Shown here: one piece after another, positions 17,152-23,446 of the stretch | How positions within the stretch are numbered: the stretch's first letter is position 1 | Layout: every line of letters begins with the position of its first letter | Source: Vulcanimicrobiota bacterium | GTDB taxonomy: Bacteria; Vulcanimicrobiota; Vulcanimicrobiia; Vulcanimicrobiales; Vulcanimicrobiaceae | NCBI GenBank assembly: GCA_013036095.1 | Contig: JAAXCW010000002.1 | Location: 62,001-126,000 of the forward strand | Reading direction: 5' to 3' | DNA length: 64,000 nucleotides | Notes under the pieces: model-generated | Told to the model about the DNA's origin: nothing | The model's database searches: none | Seen by the model: the letters and a program-made list of their open reading frames with translations, nothing else | Made by a program: the position numbers and the translations under genes

Positions 17152-17186
17152 CAAACGGGCCTCGGATATCTCCGGGGCTCGTTTTA
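17152..17186. terminator. Shared terminator between the charged exported protein and the CHAT operon
   Basis: AAACGGGCCTCGG pairs with CCGGGGCTCGTTT across an ATATCT loop, followed by a T-run on the plus strand and a matching A/T flank on the other. It sits where the two convergent transcripts meet. Confidence 0.75.
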
Positions 17187-20069
17187 TGTGTGGAAGGCGC
17201 CGTCTCCGAAAAGTACCGTTCCGGCCCAAAAGAACGGATGCGCAAGCGCGGAATCGGATCCGTGAATCATCTGAATTTTTGCGTTTTGGAGCGCACTTGC
17301 CGGCGACACCGGCGCCGCACCGCTTAACGCGTGAAAGAACGACGGTATAAACGTTTTTTGCACCTCGTCATACACGGTCCAATCCGTTACGGCCACATCC
17401 GGCGTGCCGGCGTACATAAACGCCTTCGTCAATCCTTGAACGCCGTCGCTTGCGTCAACGGCGCCGCCGCCGCTTTGGCATGCGGAAAGCACAACGAGAT
17501 CGCTCCTTAACGAGAGTCCATACACGTCGGACATGGTCAGGTAGCCGTTCTCCGCCGGATGCGCCAGCACCAGAGCCGGCTGATCGACTTCGCCGATCGT
17601 TCCCGGCAACACGGCATGCGTCGCAAAGAGTACGTAGCGATACTTTGTTAAATCCAAATGCACCAGCGTGTCTTTCGTCGCTGCTTCGCCGGTGTAGACC
17701 GCGCTGGAGCCCGCGCCGAGTTCGGACGCCACGGCATTCGCTTCCTCTTCCGCTCCTTGAAGCGCAGGAAAGCCGCCGTTTGCGCCTCGCGACGTTAAAT
17801 GGGAAACGACCGCCGCGCTTTGCGCATCGTGCGGCGCTGCCGAAGAAAACGCGGGATTAGCAAACGCCAGCAGCGGCGCGCGCTCTTCGAGACGGCGCTT
17901 TTCCAATCCGCTACGCAATGCGTTCAGTTCCGATGTTGATGACAAATACGACACCGCGTGATCTTCTATGAAATAGCGCTGGGGCGAATTCGCAGTGACC
18001 AGCGCTTCAAACGGCACATGGTACAGCGAACCCGAAGGAACGATGAAGACCGTCGCGGCGCCGCGCAGCATCGCGGTGGCCTCCGGCGGAAAGAGCGCCT
18101 GATAGAGATCCGCAGACGCCGCCGCAAACTGCGGTAGATTCGTAGTCGCGGCGTCGTAGGCGTACTGCAAACTCTTGCCTTCATCGACGTCGCGCTCGAT
18201 TTGCAGCGGCCCGCTGAGCATCGCGGCAACTTTTGCATCGAGCGCTCTTTTAGGCAACGCCAGATGCACTAAGCGAAAAGAATCCCGCGTGACGACCCAA
18301 AGATCGGTCGCGTCCGCCAGCGCTGCGAAGACCGCGATCGCTTCGTTGGGCGCGAGCAGCGCTTGCAGCGCGCCGATCTCCACCGGCTGCGGATGCTTCA
18401 GCGCATAGTACGCTGGATAATTCGTGCGCAGCTCGTCGTCGAACCGGCTTTGCTCCGCCTGCGCGTTTTCCCACGCCGATTCGGCGCTCTTGGTGTCCGC
18501 ATTCCCTGCCGAAATCGCGGCCAGCGCGGATTGCGCGTCGCTCACGCGTTTTGCCAGTTGTGTTTCCTCATCGAGAACCGCTTGCGGCACTCCGGAAAAG
18601 GCATTCGTCCCGCTCTGCGAGATCTGCTCGAGCGTCGTTCGCCCTTGACGCCGCTCGAAGACGCGAAATGCCTTGCGGTCCCACCCGGCGCCTGGGAATG
18701 CGCGGTCAAGGGCGCCGAGGTACGCGATGTAATTGTCGTAGACCGGCAGCGTGCTGCTGAAAAACGACCTGCGCGAAGCCGGGTCCGAAAGTTCGCTGCG
18801 CACTTGTTCGATATCGTTCAGGGCGCCGTCGTAGGCTTTCACCGCGCCGTTAACGTCGTGTATCTGCACGTTTGATGCCGCCATGATATTGTACGTCTTC
18901 CACGTCGGCATTTGATATTTTTGGTGCAGCGCAAGACTTTCGGCGCTCGATTGCAATGACTGCCGGTAGGCGTGGACATGGTATTGGGCGACCGCAAGGT
19001 TTTCGAGCGCTATCGCGAGGGTGGTTTGATCGTGCACCTTCCGAAAATATGTTATCGCTTTTCCATACGACGCTATGGCGCTCTCAAATTGACCCATGTC
19101 GTCCTGAAGATTTCCGAGCGAGGAATAGATGGTTGCACCTAGTCGCTCGTCGTGCGAGCGCTTAGCTAAAGCCGCCGCCTCCGTAAACGAGGCGAGCGCC
19201 GCCGTACGCTGATTCAGAAAATCTTGGGCGGTGCCCAGATTGTGCAGGTCGACGATAACTGCGTCCTGTTGTTCGCTTGGCGGAAGCTTCCGGTCGATGC
19301 CCAGCGCAGCGCGATAGAATTGCACCGCGCCATGCAAGTCGTTAAGATCTTCGCTCACGTCGCCCAAACTCCGCAGGGCGCGTGCACCGGCTGCGCGGGC
19401 GTGATGCGCCGCGTCGATTTTGAGAGCGGCTTCAAACATGAGTTGCGCGTCCTCGTAGTGCGCGTGTTCCTCGGCAACGATCCCCGCTTCTTCCAGATCG
19501 GCCTGCTCCGTTTGCCAGTCGCCCGCGCGTTTGCGCAACACAATCGCCTGCGCGAAAAGATTGAGCGCATCGGAATACGATCGCACGCGCACGGCCAAGC
19601 GCGCGTATATTTCAAAATCCTCGGCTTGCGCGCGCAAGTCCCCGTTCGCTTTGTCGAGCATGACCGCGCGATTGATGTCGGCAAATTCGCTCGGAATATG
19701 CTGCATCGCTTCGTCCGTATAGAGCAGATGCAAAGCCTGACTTTGAAGATGCGGCGCTTGCGCGGCCGCCGCGAGCGCAATCGCTTGCCTCGCGTTGGCA
19801 ATGGCGACCAGCGGACGCTGCGCCACGTCGGAGCTTCGCGCGAGCAGTACGTAGAAGCGCGCCTCGTCGTAGCGATCGCCCAAAGCGTGCGCGCGTTTGA
19901 TCGCGGCGCTTGCGATTCGCTGCGCCGAGGTTGCATCGCCGCGGGAAAGCGCGCGCTCCGCGCTTTGATAAGGCGCGACGAATTCCGCGCGCGGCACGGG
20001 TTCCGCCAAAACACGAGCGCCGCAGCAAAGCGCCAGGGCGAGCGTAAAAACGACTGTGCGTGGCGTCAT
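17184..20069 (-). CDS. Exported TPR-CHAT domain protease
   Basis: 961 aa with a cleavable signal peptide (MTPRTVVFTLALALCCGARVLA). About residues 30-450 are TPR-like helix pairs (for example AQRIASAAIKRAHALGDRYDEARFYVLLA). The C-terminal ~380 residues are a CHAT peptidase: the His motif YRYVLFATHAV (His818), the Cys motif DLVVLSACQSGGG (Cys864), and the trailing VTDWTVYDEVQKTFIPSFFHAL and HPFFWAGTVLFGDG blocks. Both members of the caspase-like dyad are intact. It is the last gene of a four-gene coupled operon, one base after the preceding stop. A periplasmic CHAT protease would cleave envelope proteins; the substrate is unknown. Confidence 0.92.
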   Translation of the reverse strand: MTPRTVVFTLALALCCGARVLAEPVPRAEFVAPYQSAERALSRGDATSAQRIASAAIKRAHALGDRYDEARFYVLLARSSDVAQRPLVAIANARQAIALAAAAQAPHLQSQALHLLYTDEAMQHIPSEFADINRAVMLDKANGDLRAQAEDFEIYARLAVRVRSYSDALNLFAQAIVLRKRAGDWQTEQADLEEAGIVAEEHAHYEDAQLMFEAALKIDAAHHARAAGARALRSLGDVSEDLNDLHGAVQFYRAALGIDRKLPPSEQQDAVIVDLHNLGTAQDFLNQRTAALASFTEAAALAKRSHDERLGATIYSSLGNLQDDMGQFESAIASYGKAITYFRKVHDQTTLAIALENLAVAQYHVHAYRQSLQSSAESLALHQKYQMPTWKTYNIMAASNVQIHDVNGAVKAYDGALNDIEQVRSELSDPASRRSFFSSTLPVYDNYIAYLGALDRAFPGAGWDRKAFRVFERRQGRTTLEQISQSGTNAFSGVPQAVLDEETQLAKRVSDAQSALAAISAGNADTKSAESAWENAQAEQSRFDDELRTNYPAYYALKHPQPVEIGALQALLAPNEAIAVFAALADATDLWVVTRDSFRLVHLALPKRALDAKVAAMLSGPLQIERDVDEGKSLQYAYDAATTNLPQFAAASADLYQALFPPEATAMLRGAATVFIVPSGSLYHVPFEALVTANSPQRYFIEDHAVSYLSSTSELNALRSGLEKRRLEERAPLLAFANPAFSSAAPHDAQSAAVVSHLTSRGANGGFPALQGAEEEANAVASELGAGSSAVYTGEAATKDTLVHLDLTKYRYVLFATHAVLPGTIGEVDQPALVLAHPAENGYLTMSDVYGLSLRSDLVVLSACQSGGGAVDASDGVQGLTKAFMYAGTPDVAVTDWTVYDEVQKTFIPSFFHALSGAAPVSPASALQNAKIQMIHGSDSALAHPFFWAGTVLFGDGAFHT

Positions 20070-20070
20070 G

Positions 20071-20997
20071 TCAGCCCTCCGTCAGCAGGTAACGCAGCTG
20101 CGGCACTTGCTGCGTGTCGTCGGGAAGTGGCGCCAGCTCTTGGTATGCCGCGAGCCTCCACTGATCGCCCTGGCCCTTGAGCAACGTGGCCCGCCAAAGC
20201 GCGCGCATGTGCACGGGAATAAGTGGATCGCCAAGCGCCTGCATCTCCTGCGGCGTCAGCTTCGGAAGCTGCGAGATGGGAATCACGCGAAAGGTCAGCG
20301 GAGCGGTCGCAGCTCCGGTTGCATCGGCAACGCGCACGCGGTAGCTGCCCGGTTCCAGACGCAAATTCACGAACCGCGCTTCGCTCGCGCCGGTCACCGG
20401 ATCGGTTTTTACCTGCGCGGCCGCTGCAATGGCTGCACCCTGCGCGTTCTCCAACGTCGCCTTGAAGGGCGCCGAGCCGTTAAGCCACGGAATCGAAAGC
20501 GTCCCGTCGGTGACAGGCGTGAGCTGTTCGACGTTTTCCAGAATCGCAAGCGCCGGCTTTCCCGCGCCCATCGAAATGTTCGATTCGGTCTCGGCGCTGT
20601 AGTAGTGCTCTTGCGCGGTACGCAGCACCGACGAGACGGAGTTCAGAATGCTGCGCACGACCGCCGGAAATCCTCCGCTATCCGCCGCGGAGCGCGAGCC
20701 GCAGCGGCCGTCCGTCGCGCCAACGCAATACGGTGAACGCGCGGCGTCAACCACGACGTTTTTTCCCGCGATGTACAGCGTGATCGTGAGTTTCCGGCCC
20801 TTGTCCGTAGCCCTGAGAATACTGACACGATCGCCGTTCTCAAGTGCATGCGCGGCGCCCACGCCGGGAACGCCGTTAACGGCATATGCCGAGGGCGGGC
20901 CGTTGATGTCAACAACCCAGCCGATTGACGGCGTCGCGGCGCGAGCCGCGCTCACAAACCCGGCGGCCAACAGCAGAACGGCAGTTGCAAATCGCAT
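20071..20997 (-). CDS. Exported protein of the CHASE2-CHAT operon (FecR/SH3-like N-terminus)
   Basis: 308 aa with a signal peptide (MRFATAVLLLAAGFVSAARA). The N-terminal part (GWVVDINGPPSAYAVNGVPG, then ALENGDRVSI) reads like a FecR- or SH3-type beta-domain of the kind that begins many cell-surface scaffolds. A CVGATDGRC pair lies near residues 85-95. The C-terminal half has an Ig-like beta-sandwich feel (LEPGSYRVRVADATGAA). The start overlaps the CHASE2 stop (TAATG) and the stop is one base from the CHAT gene start, so it is firmly part of the operon. Not recognised as a named family. Confidence 0.82.
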   Translation of the reverse strand: MRFATAVLLLAAGFVSAARAATPSIGWVVDINGPPSAYAVNGVPGVGAAHALENGDRVSILRATDKGRKLTITLYIAGKNVVVDAARSPYCVGATDGRCGSRSAADSGGFPAVVRSILNSVSSVLRTAQEHYYSAETESNISMGAGKPALAILENVEQLTPVTDGTLSIPWLNGSAPFKATLENAQGAAIAAAAQVKTDPVTGASEARFVNLRLEPGSYRVRVADATGAATAPLTFRVIPISQLPKLTPQEMQALGDPLIPVHMRALWRATLLKGQGDQWRLAAYQELAPLPDDTQQVPQLRYLLTEG

Positions 20998-22340
20998 TAC
21001 AAGCTCTCCTTCACTCCATGGTACGCGCGATGCGCGAACTCGTGCAAGAAAATACCGGCGAAAGGAACGATAGAATCAACGAAAATACCCAAATTAAACG
21101 CCGCCAGTCCCAAGGTGACCGCAGCGAGCGCAATAAGCGCGGCGGTCAGAGCCAGCGCCCAACCCGTTGCAAGCACCGCAAGCAACGCCGACAACAATAC
21201 AACAAGCGCAATCTCGATCGTGTAATGCATCGCAGGCGAAGGCTCGCGCAGCCAGTCGCCGGCCAGCAGCGAGTTCAATTCGTTCATTTGCACCACGACG
21301 CCGGGCACGCGGCCCAGCGGCGTAAAGTGGTAATCGCTGCCGAAGGTGCTGCCGATAAACACGATTTTGTCCGCGAATAAACTGCGCGCGCTTTCCGCGC
21401 GCCCGGCCGCGATCGACTCGGCGCCGACTTCGGGAACGTCCGCCGCTTCGCCATTCCGGTGCCATCCGATGCGCATGAAGAAACGGCGTTCGAACGGCTC
21501 TTCGGTCAATGCAATGTGCACCGTTCGCGCGTTAAACGGATTGCGCAGATCGACGGCTCTCGAGGGAATCGGCGCATCCGTCGTTCCCGGCGTGGAAGTG
21601 CACGCGCGCGCGAGCGGCGCGATCGCCGCGCGCACTTGTTGCAGCGCCGCGGTATCGTTTCCGGCGAGTGCGAGCAGCGGCGCCGATGGAATCGCCGTTC
21701 CCGGACCGGGACCGCGGCATGTCGTCTCCCACAGCCGCCAGCTGCGCGTGGTCGCATCGGTTGAATCGGTTTCCACGGTTCCAAACCGAACGTTGCCGTG
21801 CGGATTCCATGGATTTTCCGGCGTCGCCGCAATCGCCGCATCCACAATCGTCGGCAGCGCTTGCGATGCGTTTACGCCGGCGCGGCCGCTCACGAAAACG
21901 CTGTCGAGCCTGCGCACCGGACGCGCGAAAATCAGTGGCGCGCACTCCGGCGCGCATCCAACGCCGCGATTATAGGAGCCAACGAATCGCACCAGCTGCG
22001 AATCTCCGGCGCCAGGTGAGCGTTCGCGCAGATCGATATCGACGACGATGGCTTTCGGCCGGTTCGTCACGGCGTACGCGATGAGCCGCGCTAGTTTATC
22101 GCGCGGCGTAATCTCCTGGGCATGCCACGCCTGCGCCGCTTGCCGGTCGATGTCAATTAAGATCAGCGGCGACGGAGGCCGTGCCGCCGCCAAACGCGCC
22201 ATCTGCCAATTGATAACGGCATCGCGCAGATGCACGACGAGCGAATTCTGTTGCACGGCCGGCAACTGCATCACCAGCATCAGGAGCAGGCCGATAATAA
22301 GGTTCGTTGCAAATCTGATCCGTTTTTCGTGAGCGTTCAC
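20997..22340 (-). CDS. CHASE2 domain membrane sensor protein without cytoplasmic output domain
   Basis: 447 aa from GTG 22340, which overlaps the upstream TGA as GTGA; the longer frame is out of context. One N-terminal helix (FATNLIIGLLLMLVMQLPAV) leads to a ~300-residue extracytoplasmic CHASE2 domain: PLILIDIDRQAAQAWH, KAIVVDIDLRERSPG, and SLFADKIVFIGSTFGSDYHFTPLGRVPGV. Three close C-terminal helices follow (EIALVVLLSALLAVLATG, ALALTAALIALAAVTLGLAAF, IFVDSIVPFAGIFLHEFA), then a short tail. CHASE2 usually precedes GGDEF, kinase or cyclase domains; none is present. Signal transfer to the neighbouring CHAT protease is an inference. Confidence 0.88.
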   Translation of the reverse strand: MNAHEKRIRFATNLIIGLLLMLVMQLPAVQQNSLVVHLRDAVINWQMARLAAARPPSPLILIDIDRQAAQAWHAQEITPRDKLARLIAYAVTNRPKAIVVDIDLRERSPGAGDSQLVRFVGSYNRGVGCAPECAPLIFARPVRRLDSVFVSGRAGVNASQALPTIVDAAIAATPENPWNPHGNVRFGTVETDSTDATTRSWRLWETTCRGPGPGTAIPSAPLLALAGNDTAALQQVRAAIAPLARACTSTPGTTDAPIPSRAVDLRNPFNARTVHIALTEEPFERRFFMRIGWHRNGEAADVPEVGAESIAAGRAESARSLFADKIVFIGSTFGSDYHFTPLGRVPGVVVQMNELNSLLAGDWLREPSPAMHYTIEIALVVLLSALLAVLATGWALALTAALIALAAVTLGLAAFNLGIFVDSIVPFAGIFLHEFAHRAYHGVKESL

Positions 22341-23239
22341 CCTTTCGGGCCGCTCGGTTGCGAATTCTGACACAAGGCCGACGTCGCCGCAAAGAGCGTG
22401 CCGATAGCCGCGACTTGGCCTTGCGTCGACGTGTTCGTCCCCCAGTGTTTGCCGAAGGCCACCGAACTCGCGCTCGCGAGCGCGCCGATAAACCCGCCGT
22501 AGCGGCAGAAAAACCGGTTCGTGTTCGGCGGATAGGTGAGGCCGCTTACGATGTTCGCGCACGACGCCAGCCGTCCGGAAAGATCGTCGTACAAATCGTA
22601 GTTGGTGTAGGCAAACTGCGTGAGTGACGCCGAAAGATCGCCCGGCGATCCGCTTGCCGTCACCGTCTGCTGCACCAGTTTGTTGACGGCGTCGGTCAGC
22701 TTGACGCCCTGATCGGCCTCGTACGCAAACGAATTACACGCCGTGCGCCATGAATAATCGAATGACGCTTGATGGGCCTTCTGCCGTGTATTCCACGCAT
22801 ACACGGAGAGCAGAAAATCGCACATGCGCAAACGGTACACTTGCGCGCGAATGTCGCGGTAGGTTTGGCGAATTTCGTTCGCGATCGCATCGGGCGTTTT
22901 TACGCCGCGCAGCGCGCTCAAGCGCGCGCTCAAACTATTCTGGCCCGGCTCCGCGGCACAGATCGGAACGTACGTCGGCACGTCGCCCAGCAGCTGGCTG
23001 CAGCGCACGCCGTTGAGTCCCAAGAAGAACATGAGGTTTGGAAAAGATACGTCTGTGTGTCCCGATAGAACGGAGTAGTCGCGCGGCTGCGCGTAGATCG
23101 ACGCCTGATCGACCGCGTCGGCCTTGGCTCCGCACGGCGTCGCCGCCGTTGCCGGCTGCGCGTTCTGTTGCGCCGTTGCGATACCGGCCGGCGATAGAGC
23201 CAGACAACCGATGAAAGCCAAACATGCGCCGCGCTTCAT
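22337..23239 (-). CDS. Exported Cys-containing protein, first gene of the CHASE2-CHAT operon
   Basis: 300 aa with a signal peptide (MKRGACLAFIGCLALSPAGIATAQ) and a GGAGG site 11 bases before the ATG. Eight or so cysteines lie in the mature part, including CGAKAD, GVRCSQ, VPICAAEPG, RLRMCDFL, RTACNSF, ASCANIV, RFFCRYGG and ALCQNS, an even-looking set that suggests disulphides in the periplasm. The fold appears mostly helical. I do not recognise it. Its stop overlaps the CHASE2 start (GTGA). Confidence 0.8.
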   Translation of the reverse strand: MKRGACLAFIGCLALSPAGIATAQQNAQPATAATPCGAKADAVDQASIYAQPRDYSVLSGHTDVSFPNLMFFLGLNGVRCSQLLGDVPTYVPICAAEPGQNSLSARLSALRGVKTPDAIANEIRQTYRDIRAQVYRLRMCDFLLSVYAWNTRQKAHQASFDYSWRTACNSFAYEADQGVKLTDAVNKLVQQTVTASGSPGDLSASLTQFAYTNYDLYDDLSGRLASCANIVSGLTYPPNTNRFFCRYGGFIGALASASSVAFGKHWGTNTSTQGQVAAIGTLFAATSALCQNSQPSGPKG

Positions 23240-23371: not shown

Positions 23372-23446
23372 GGGCGGTTAGCTCAGTGGGAGAGCACTTC
23401 CCTGACACGGAAGGGGTCATTGGTTCAATCCCAATACCGCCCACCA
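23372..23446 (+). tRNA. tRNA-Val (GAC)
   Basis: Acceptor GGGCGGT/ACCGCCC, D-arm GCTCAGTGGGAGAGC, anticodon loop CTGACAC (GAC), T-loop GTTCAATCC, discriminator A73 (23443) and an encoded CCA at 23444-23446. It lies between two minus-strand operons. Confidence 0.96.

Follow-up and report, generated by a model that had tools for sequence, protein, structure and literature searches.

A CHASE2 protein without a cytoplasmic output domain is linked to an Ig-like protein family and a predicted exported caspase-type peptidase in several bacterial groups

What can a CHASE2 membrane protein serve when no cytoplasmic domain is fused to it and its gene is packed against that of a CHAT protease with an export signal? 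The question is raised by a locus in a 64,000-nucleotide stretch of DNA (the window) from a Vulcanimicrobiota bacterium (GenBank assembly GCA_013036095.1, contig JAAXCW010000002.1, positions 62,001 to 126,000), in which four open reading frames (ORFs, called with simple scripts) lie tightly packed on the minus strand from 23239 to 17184. They encode a cysteine-rich exported protein of 300 amino acids (aa) with a signal-like N-terminus (22337-23239), a CHASE2 membrane protein of 447 aa (20997-22340), an exported 308-aa protein, here named P308 (20071-20997), and an exported TPR-CHAT peptidase of 961 aa, also with a signal-like N-terminus (17184-20069). A first-pass annotation had described the four genes as overlapping or nearly touching, and direct reading of the junctions bore this out: GTGA joins the stop of the cysteine-rich protein gene (Cys gene) to the GTG start of the CHASE2 gene at 22340, TAATG joins the CHASE2 stop to the P308 ATG, and a single base separates the P308 gene from the CHAT ATG at 20069. 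The conserved unit is smaller than this operon: it consists of CHASE2, P308 and the protease, whose linkage is kept and whose order is not.

We examined conservation in 117 genomes of the class, which probably belongs to Eremiobacterota. P308 was found in 13 genomes and CHAT in 19, and both were present in 12 (Fisher p = 8e-11, kinship uncorrected); counted by genus, P308 occurs in 7 of 48 genera, all 7 of which have CHAT. Among the 12 P308 loci of the phylum that were analysed, CHAT lies within 5 kb in 11 and CHASE2 within 5 kb in 9. The order CHASE2-P308-CHAT is collinear in loci L054, L055, L057, L059, L064, and L065; the genes are on alternating strands in L056, CHASE2 is divergent in L058, and CHASE2 is not nearby in L063. 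The Cys gene was detected in just three of the 117 genomes (G000, G005, and G031), each time inside a module locus. Its product has no Pfam family, and six cysteines are kept in a 40%-identical homologue. With a Cys gene this restricted and an arrangement that varies, a conserved four-gene order had to be given up in favor of the three-gene unit, for which linkage across several phyla was upheld. The Cys protein is a lineage-specific accessory and may be a substrate, a ligand or an inhibitor.

All four window genes are under purifying selection relative to the congener G005 (locus L055, gene order identical), with ratios of nonsynonymous to synonymous substitution rates (dN/dS) of 0.08-0.15, the values for the Cys and CHAT genes being 0.084 and 0.147, respectively. 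The dS of the CHAT gene in this comparison is 1.35, approximately twice that of its three operon neighbors (0.61-0.75), as if the gene had been replaced by recombination or had evolved differently. An exported serine hydrolase gene of the beta-lactamase family (PF00144) was seen near the module at L055:15062-16585, L057:7578-9014, and L058:3530-5089.

Beyond the phylum, CHASE2, P308 and an exported peptidase of the caspase fold are linked, with changes of gene order, in Beggiatoaceae-type Gammaproteobacteria, Acidobacteriota and Alphaproteobacteria, so that P308 is present in four bacterial groups including Eremiobacterota. When GTDB-species contigs were scanned for the module-type CHASE2, matches came from Acidobacteriota, Candidatus Parabeggiatoa and Rhodospirillales. 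CHASE2 and P308 stay in these loci while the protease slot is filled by CHAT, by a C14 caspase or by a C14 and CHAT fusion. In the acidobacterial locus L076, the gene after CHASE2 and P308 (profile E = 1.5e-41) encodes an exported C14 caspase in the place of CHAT; the third gene of Parabeggiatoa locus L078 encodes a lipoprotein that combines C14 and CHAT in a single polypeptide, the C14 half having Ser for Cys and the CHAT half retaining His and Cys; and the protease of L113 has the architecture C14-TPR-CHAT. P308 was found in 24 of 43 genomes of the Beggiatoaceae-type gammaproteobacterial order and is rare in Acidobacteriota (two convincing matches in 396 genomes). In 52 P308 loci, several of them on short contigs, CHASE2 lies within 5 kb in 28, a CHAT or C14 gene in 37 and both in 26; the surroundings of P308 show no further gene family that is widely recurrent. 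The distances among the three proteins correlate over 21 loci (Mantel r = 0.85, 0.63, and 0.54; p = 0.0002, also with within-group permutation). A plasmid search for CHASE2 with the window protein as query gave no match; the same search with the acidobacterial homologue gave two Alphaproteobacteria. Among named plasmids, one of Mesorhizobium sp. AR07 combines CHASE2 with a pair of caspase genes and a relative of P308 (E = 1.1e-13), and on one of Azospirillum sp. B510 a CHAT lipoprotein gene adjoins CHASE2. One gene family adjoins three module loci (L130:12009-14000, L160:10551-12458, and L164:3709-7245), and its member in L130, where the domain was scanned for, is a two-partner-secretion (TPS) exoprotein with the TPS domain PF05860.

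Does the CHASE2 protein really end without a cytoplasmic output? The window protein matches CHASE2 (PF05226) above the Pfam cut-off (E = 2.6e-23). Its structural model, with a predicted local distance difference test (pLDDT) score of 89.2, has one N-terminal membrane helix (residues 3-24, 22269-22334, also seen by hydropathy), an ectodomain and three C-terminal membrane helices (residues 369-389, 392-416, and 424-446; 21003-21236), which is a predicted topology. The chain ends at residue 447, one residue past the last modeled helix, and no kinase, cyclase or GGDEF domain is fused to it, as the first-pass annotation had claimed. The CHASE2 proteins of the module extend 0-43 residues beyond the CHASE2 profile (one extends 130), whereas the other CHASE2 proteins of the class extend 216-248 residues and read as cyclases. 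The absence of P308 beside the cyclase-type loci is weak evidence, since the flanks there are short. Comparison of the window CHASE2 with PDB gave no match by sequence, and the best match by fold had an E of 0.6. Tandem CHASE2 genes were observed beside a P308 gene at L075:687-5554 and L116:1-4787, one ORF of 1058 aa holding two CHASE2 domains. Further short output-less CHASE2 proteins, distant from the module type, are encoded at L066:6452-7792 and L067:6520-7797, the latter adjoined by a CHAT gene and by the gene of an exported protein of 262 aa.

The window peptidase matches CHAT (PF12770, E = 1.2e-61; residues 652-956, 17202-18116) and carries TPRs. The catalytic residues His818 (motif FATHAV, codon 17616-17618) and Cys864 (motif LSACQ, 17478-17480) are intact at the positions first assigned to them, and no module CHAT in which both positions align has a substitution at either. 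A Sec-type signal peptide (MTPRTVVFTLALALCCGARVLA, 20004-20069) is predicted by a simple home-made score; its counterpart in L055 differs in sequence and has the same character. The same score assigns a Sec- or lipoprotein-like N-terminus to nearly every module protease whose start is intact, and those without one are mostly cut or broken ORFs (L136 seems to be a near miss). The full-length non-module CHATs of L070 and L148 have no export-like N-terminus. The signal peptide, which had been singled out as exceptional for a CHAT protein, is thus a common character of the module, and several cyanobacterial CHATs appear exported as well.

P308 has no Pfam family. It had been called a FecR/SH3-like protein; the FecR label was dropped because no FecR family matched at E ≤ 1, and the beta, SH3-like and Ig-like character comes solely from the model. 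In this model (pLDDT 81.9) a beta N-terminal part is followed by a helix, an immunoglobulin (Ig)-like sandwich and C-terminal helices, and PDB matches, of Ig/FN3-like type, were obtained for the sandwich only. The Ig-like and helical module (approximately residues 158-306, 20080-20526) is the part that recurs in L064 (3885-6239), where a second copy of it stands N-terminally in one chain with a shorter CHAT protein (784 aa). The strongest hint that P308 may work on the protease comes from this fusion, which also supports the earlier proposal that the small secreted protein serves as a scaffold. Exported frames of 859-918 aa in acidobacterial loci L122-L125 have an N-terminal part weakly matching the N-terminal beta region of P308 (E ~1e-7); no CHAT, C14 or CHASE2 profile matched these proteins, and we put the similarity down to chance or to a beta domain in common.

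What the computation shows is the gene set and its linkage, export as predicted, a dyad that is intact, a CHASE2 protein lacking any cytoplasmic domain and one P308-CHAT fusion, and with these in hand we lean toward an extracytoplasmic complex of receptor or anchor, adaptor and protease as the probable answer. From these data we infer a physical complex, its gating, proteolytic activity and the direction of the signal. CHASE2 would sit in the inner membrane as receptor, anchor or both, with its functional domain wholly outside the cytoplasm and no recipient of a signal inside. P308 would act as adaptor or inhibitor, its Ig-like and C-terminal helical module holding or gating the exported TPR-CHAT (or C14) peptidase. 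Ligand binding or envelope damage, at CHASE2 or at the TPRs, would release the peptidase, whose target would be a periplasmic, outer-membrane or extracellular protein. The periplasmic sense-and-cleave module of the first-pass annotation thus keeps its exported caspase-type protease, its outputless CHASE2 and its linkage, now in several phyla; "sense" and "cleave" are functions that we propose for it.

Several observations weigh against this complex. In a gammaproteobacterial subgroup P308 is also found with neither CHASE2 nor protease, in part next to a response-regulator/histidine-kinase gene; the P308 genes of Beggiatoaceae-type genomes near such a gene (L110:4970-7660, L137:3739-6999, L139, L145, L156, L161, and L163) have neither partner within 5 kb in several cases. 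CHAT and P308 occur without a nearby CHASE2 in L063, L112, and L117, the P308-CHAT fusion is a single case, and the signal peptides rest on a simple score of our own making. The main rival, which we consider unlikely, is a constitutive maturation protease without sensing: CHASE2 would be a platform, P308 would present substrates, and CHAT or C14 would trim surface or secreted proteins such as two-partner-secretion adhesins. The Ig-like domain in the P308 model is consistent with this, as are the TPS-domain exoprotein genes beside L130, L160, and L164; however, these are just three loci in related lineages, and the TPS family recurs neither elsewhere nor in the window.

Envelope defense or cell death, in which CHASE2 and P308 would sense, outside the cytoplasm, damage done by phage or competitors and the caspase-type protease would kill or disarm, appears a little more doubtful than maturation. 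Bacterial conflict systems have been proposed to include caspase and CHAT effectors paired with receptors, CHASE2 among them (PMC8195603, PMC10907252), and the module is enriched in large filamentous sulfur bacteria. The window proteins themselves gave no more specific defense match than TPR, however, no defense-island genes were noted next to the window locus, and the module genes are mostly chromosomal with ordinary neighbors. That CHAT is a non-catalytic binding module in a structural unit is very improbable: the Ser in the Cys position of the L078 C14 half would fit, but no aligned module CHAT, the CHAT half of L078 included, has a substitution at His or Cys. Least credible of all is that unrelated exported proteins are clustered here by chance. 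The Cys gene, in 3 of 117 genomes, does behave in this manner; for the core three genes, linkage across phyla with altered order, co-inheritance and purifying selection contradict it. The dN/dS values together with the recurring CHASE2-P308-protease linkage argue that the core was not assembled by chance.

Discussion of caspase and CHAT proteins in bacteria has mostly treated them as effectors inside the cytoplasm. The presence of the three-gene set in at least three phyla suggests an undescribed caspase-type protease system outside the cytoplasm. Going further, we raise only tentatively, as a possibility that may well fail, a new cross-phylum class of extracytoplasmic caspase-type signaling or execution: exported CHAT or C14 peptidases gated by an outputless CHASE2 receptor together with the new Ig-like adaptor family P308, the topological reverse of the known caspase-receptor systems. 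An exported peptidase and a CHASE2 partner with no inner end in one conserved operon would mean that cells can control caspase-type proteolysis, and make use of it, outside the cytoplasm. The module also offers a testable role for output-less CHASE2 proteins and draws attention to P308 as a protein family without a Pfam entry, and related linkages are carried by plasmids of the named strains Mesorhizobium sp. AR07 and Azospirillum sp. B510.

Around the window locus, a tRNA-Val(GAC) gene lies on the plus strand (23372-23446) just upstream of the Cys gene, with a TonB-dependent-receptor-like gene on its other side. A promoter and terminator scan of the locus gave nothing above shuffled controls and was uninformative.

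How does the module compare with known systems? In the open-licence literature we found no paper describing it, nor any that mentions both CHASE2 and the CHAT domain. Craspase of type III-E CRISPR is a TPR-CHAT protease with the RNA-guided partner Cas7-11/gRAMP and the substrate Csx30 (PMC9729208, PMC9935389). It shares TPR, CHAT and the His/Cys dyad with the window protein, whereas the latter is predicted to be exported and is linked to CHASE2 and P308. Assignment to a known defense system was set aside: PADLOC gave only a TPR match for the four window proteins, whose neighbors were not systematically scanned for cas genes. CHASE2 adenylate/guanylate cyclases, such as CyaD1, CyaD2, and CyaK of Sinorhizobium meliloti (PMC13001267), likewise have a CHASE2 ectodomain framed by membrane helices at both ends of the chain, but they feed a cytoplasmic cyclase, a domain that the module CHASE2s do not have.

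Coupling of CHASE2 to a peptidase of the caspase superfamily is also found in Trichodesmium, where CHASE2 is fused to a cytoplasmic metacaspase (PMC3501461, PMC2853523), and in EACC2-caspase proteins, in which CHASE2 is a C-terminal option (PMC8195603). Those fusions are one chain with the caspase inside the cell, whereas the window module has separate genes, a protease with an export signal that is predicted to lie outside, and P308 in addition.

A parallel is offered by a cyanobacterial Chase2 cluster on plasmids (for example, Tolypothrix sp. PCC 7712, NZ_CP063787; Calothrix brevissima NIES-22, AP018209), which encodes a CHAT-CHASE2 fusion, a DUF928-like exported protein and TPR-CHAT proteins; it was seen in annotation only, no paper on it being found in the same literature. 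P308 has no direct Pfam match to DUF928 (PF06051) and the single-sequence comparison was also blank; hhalign against the DUF928-like neighbors gave P = 5e-4 with a probability of 30% (reversed control P = 0.17), and the two proteins may be remote relatives. As in the window, the cyanobacterial CHASE2 gene is overlapped by a few bases by the gene of a small exported protein, and TPR-CHAT genes follow, several with exported-looking N-termini. The cyanobacterial CHASE2, however, bears an N-terminal CHAT on the cytoplasmic side with both catalytic residues, and the window CHASE2 bears nothing cytoplasmic. Since several cyanobacterial TPR-CHATs look exported, an exported CHAT is less exceptional, and it is the missing cytoplasmic output that sets the window module apart.

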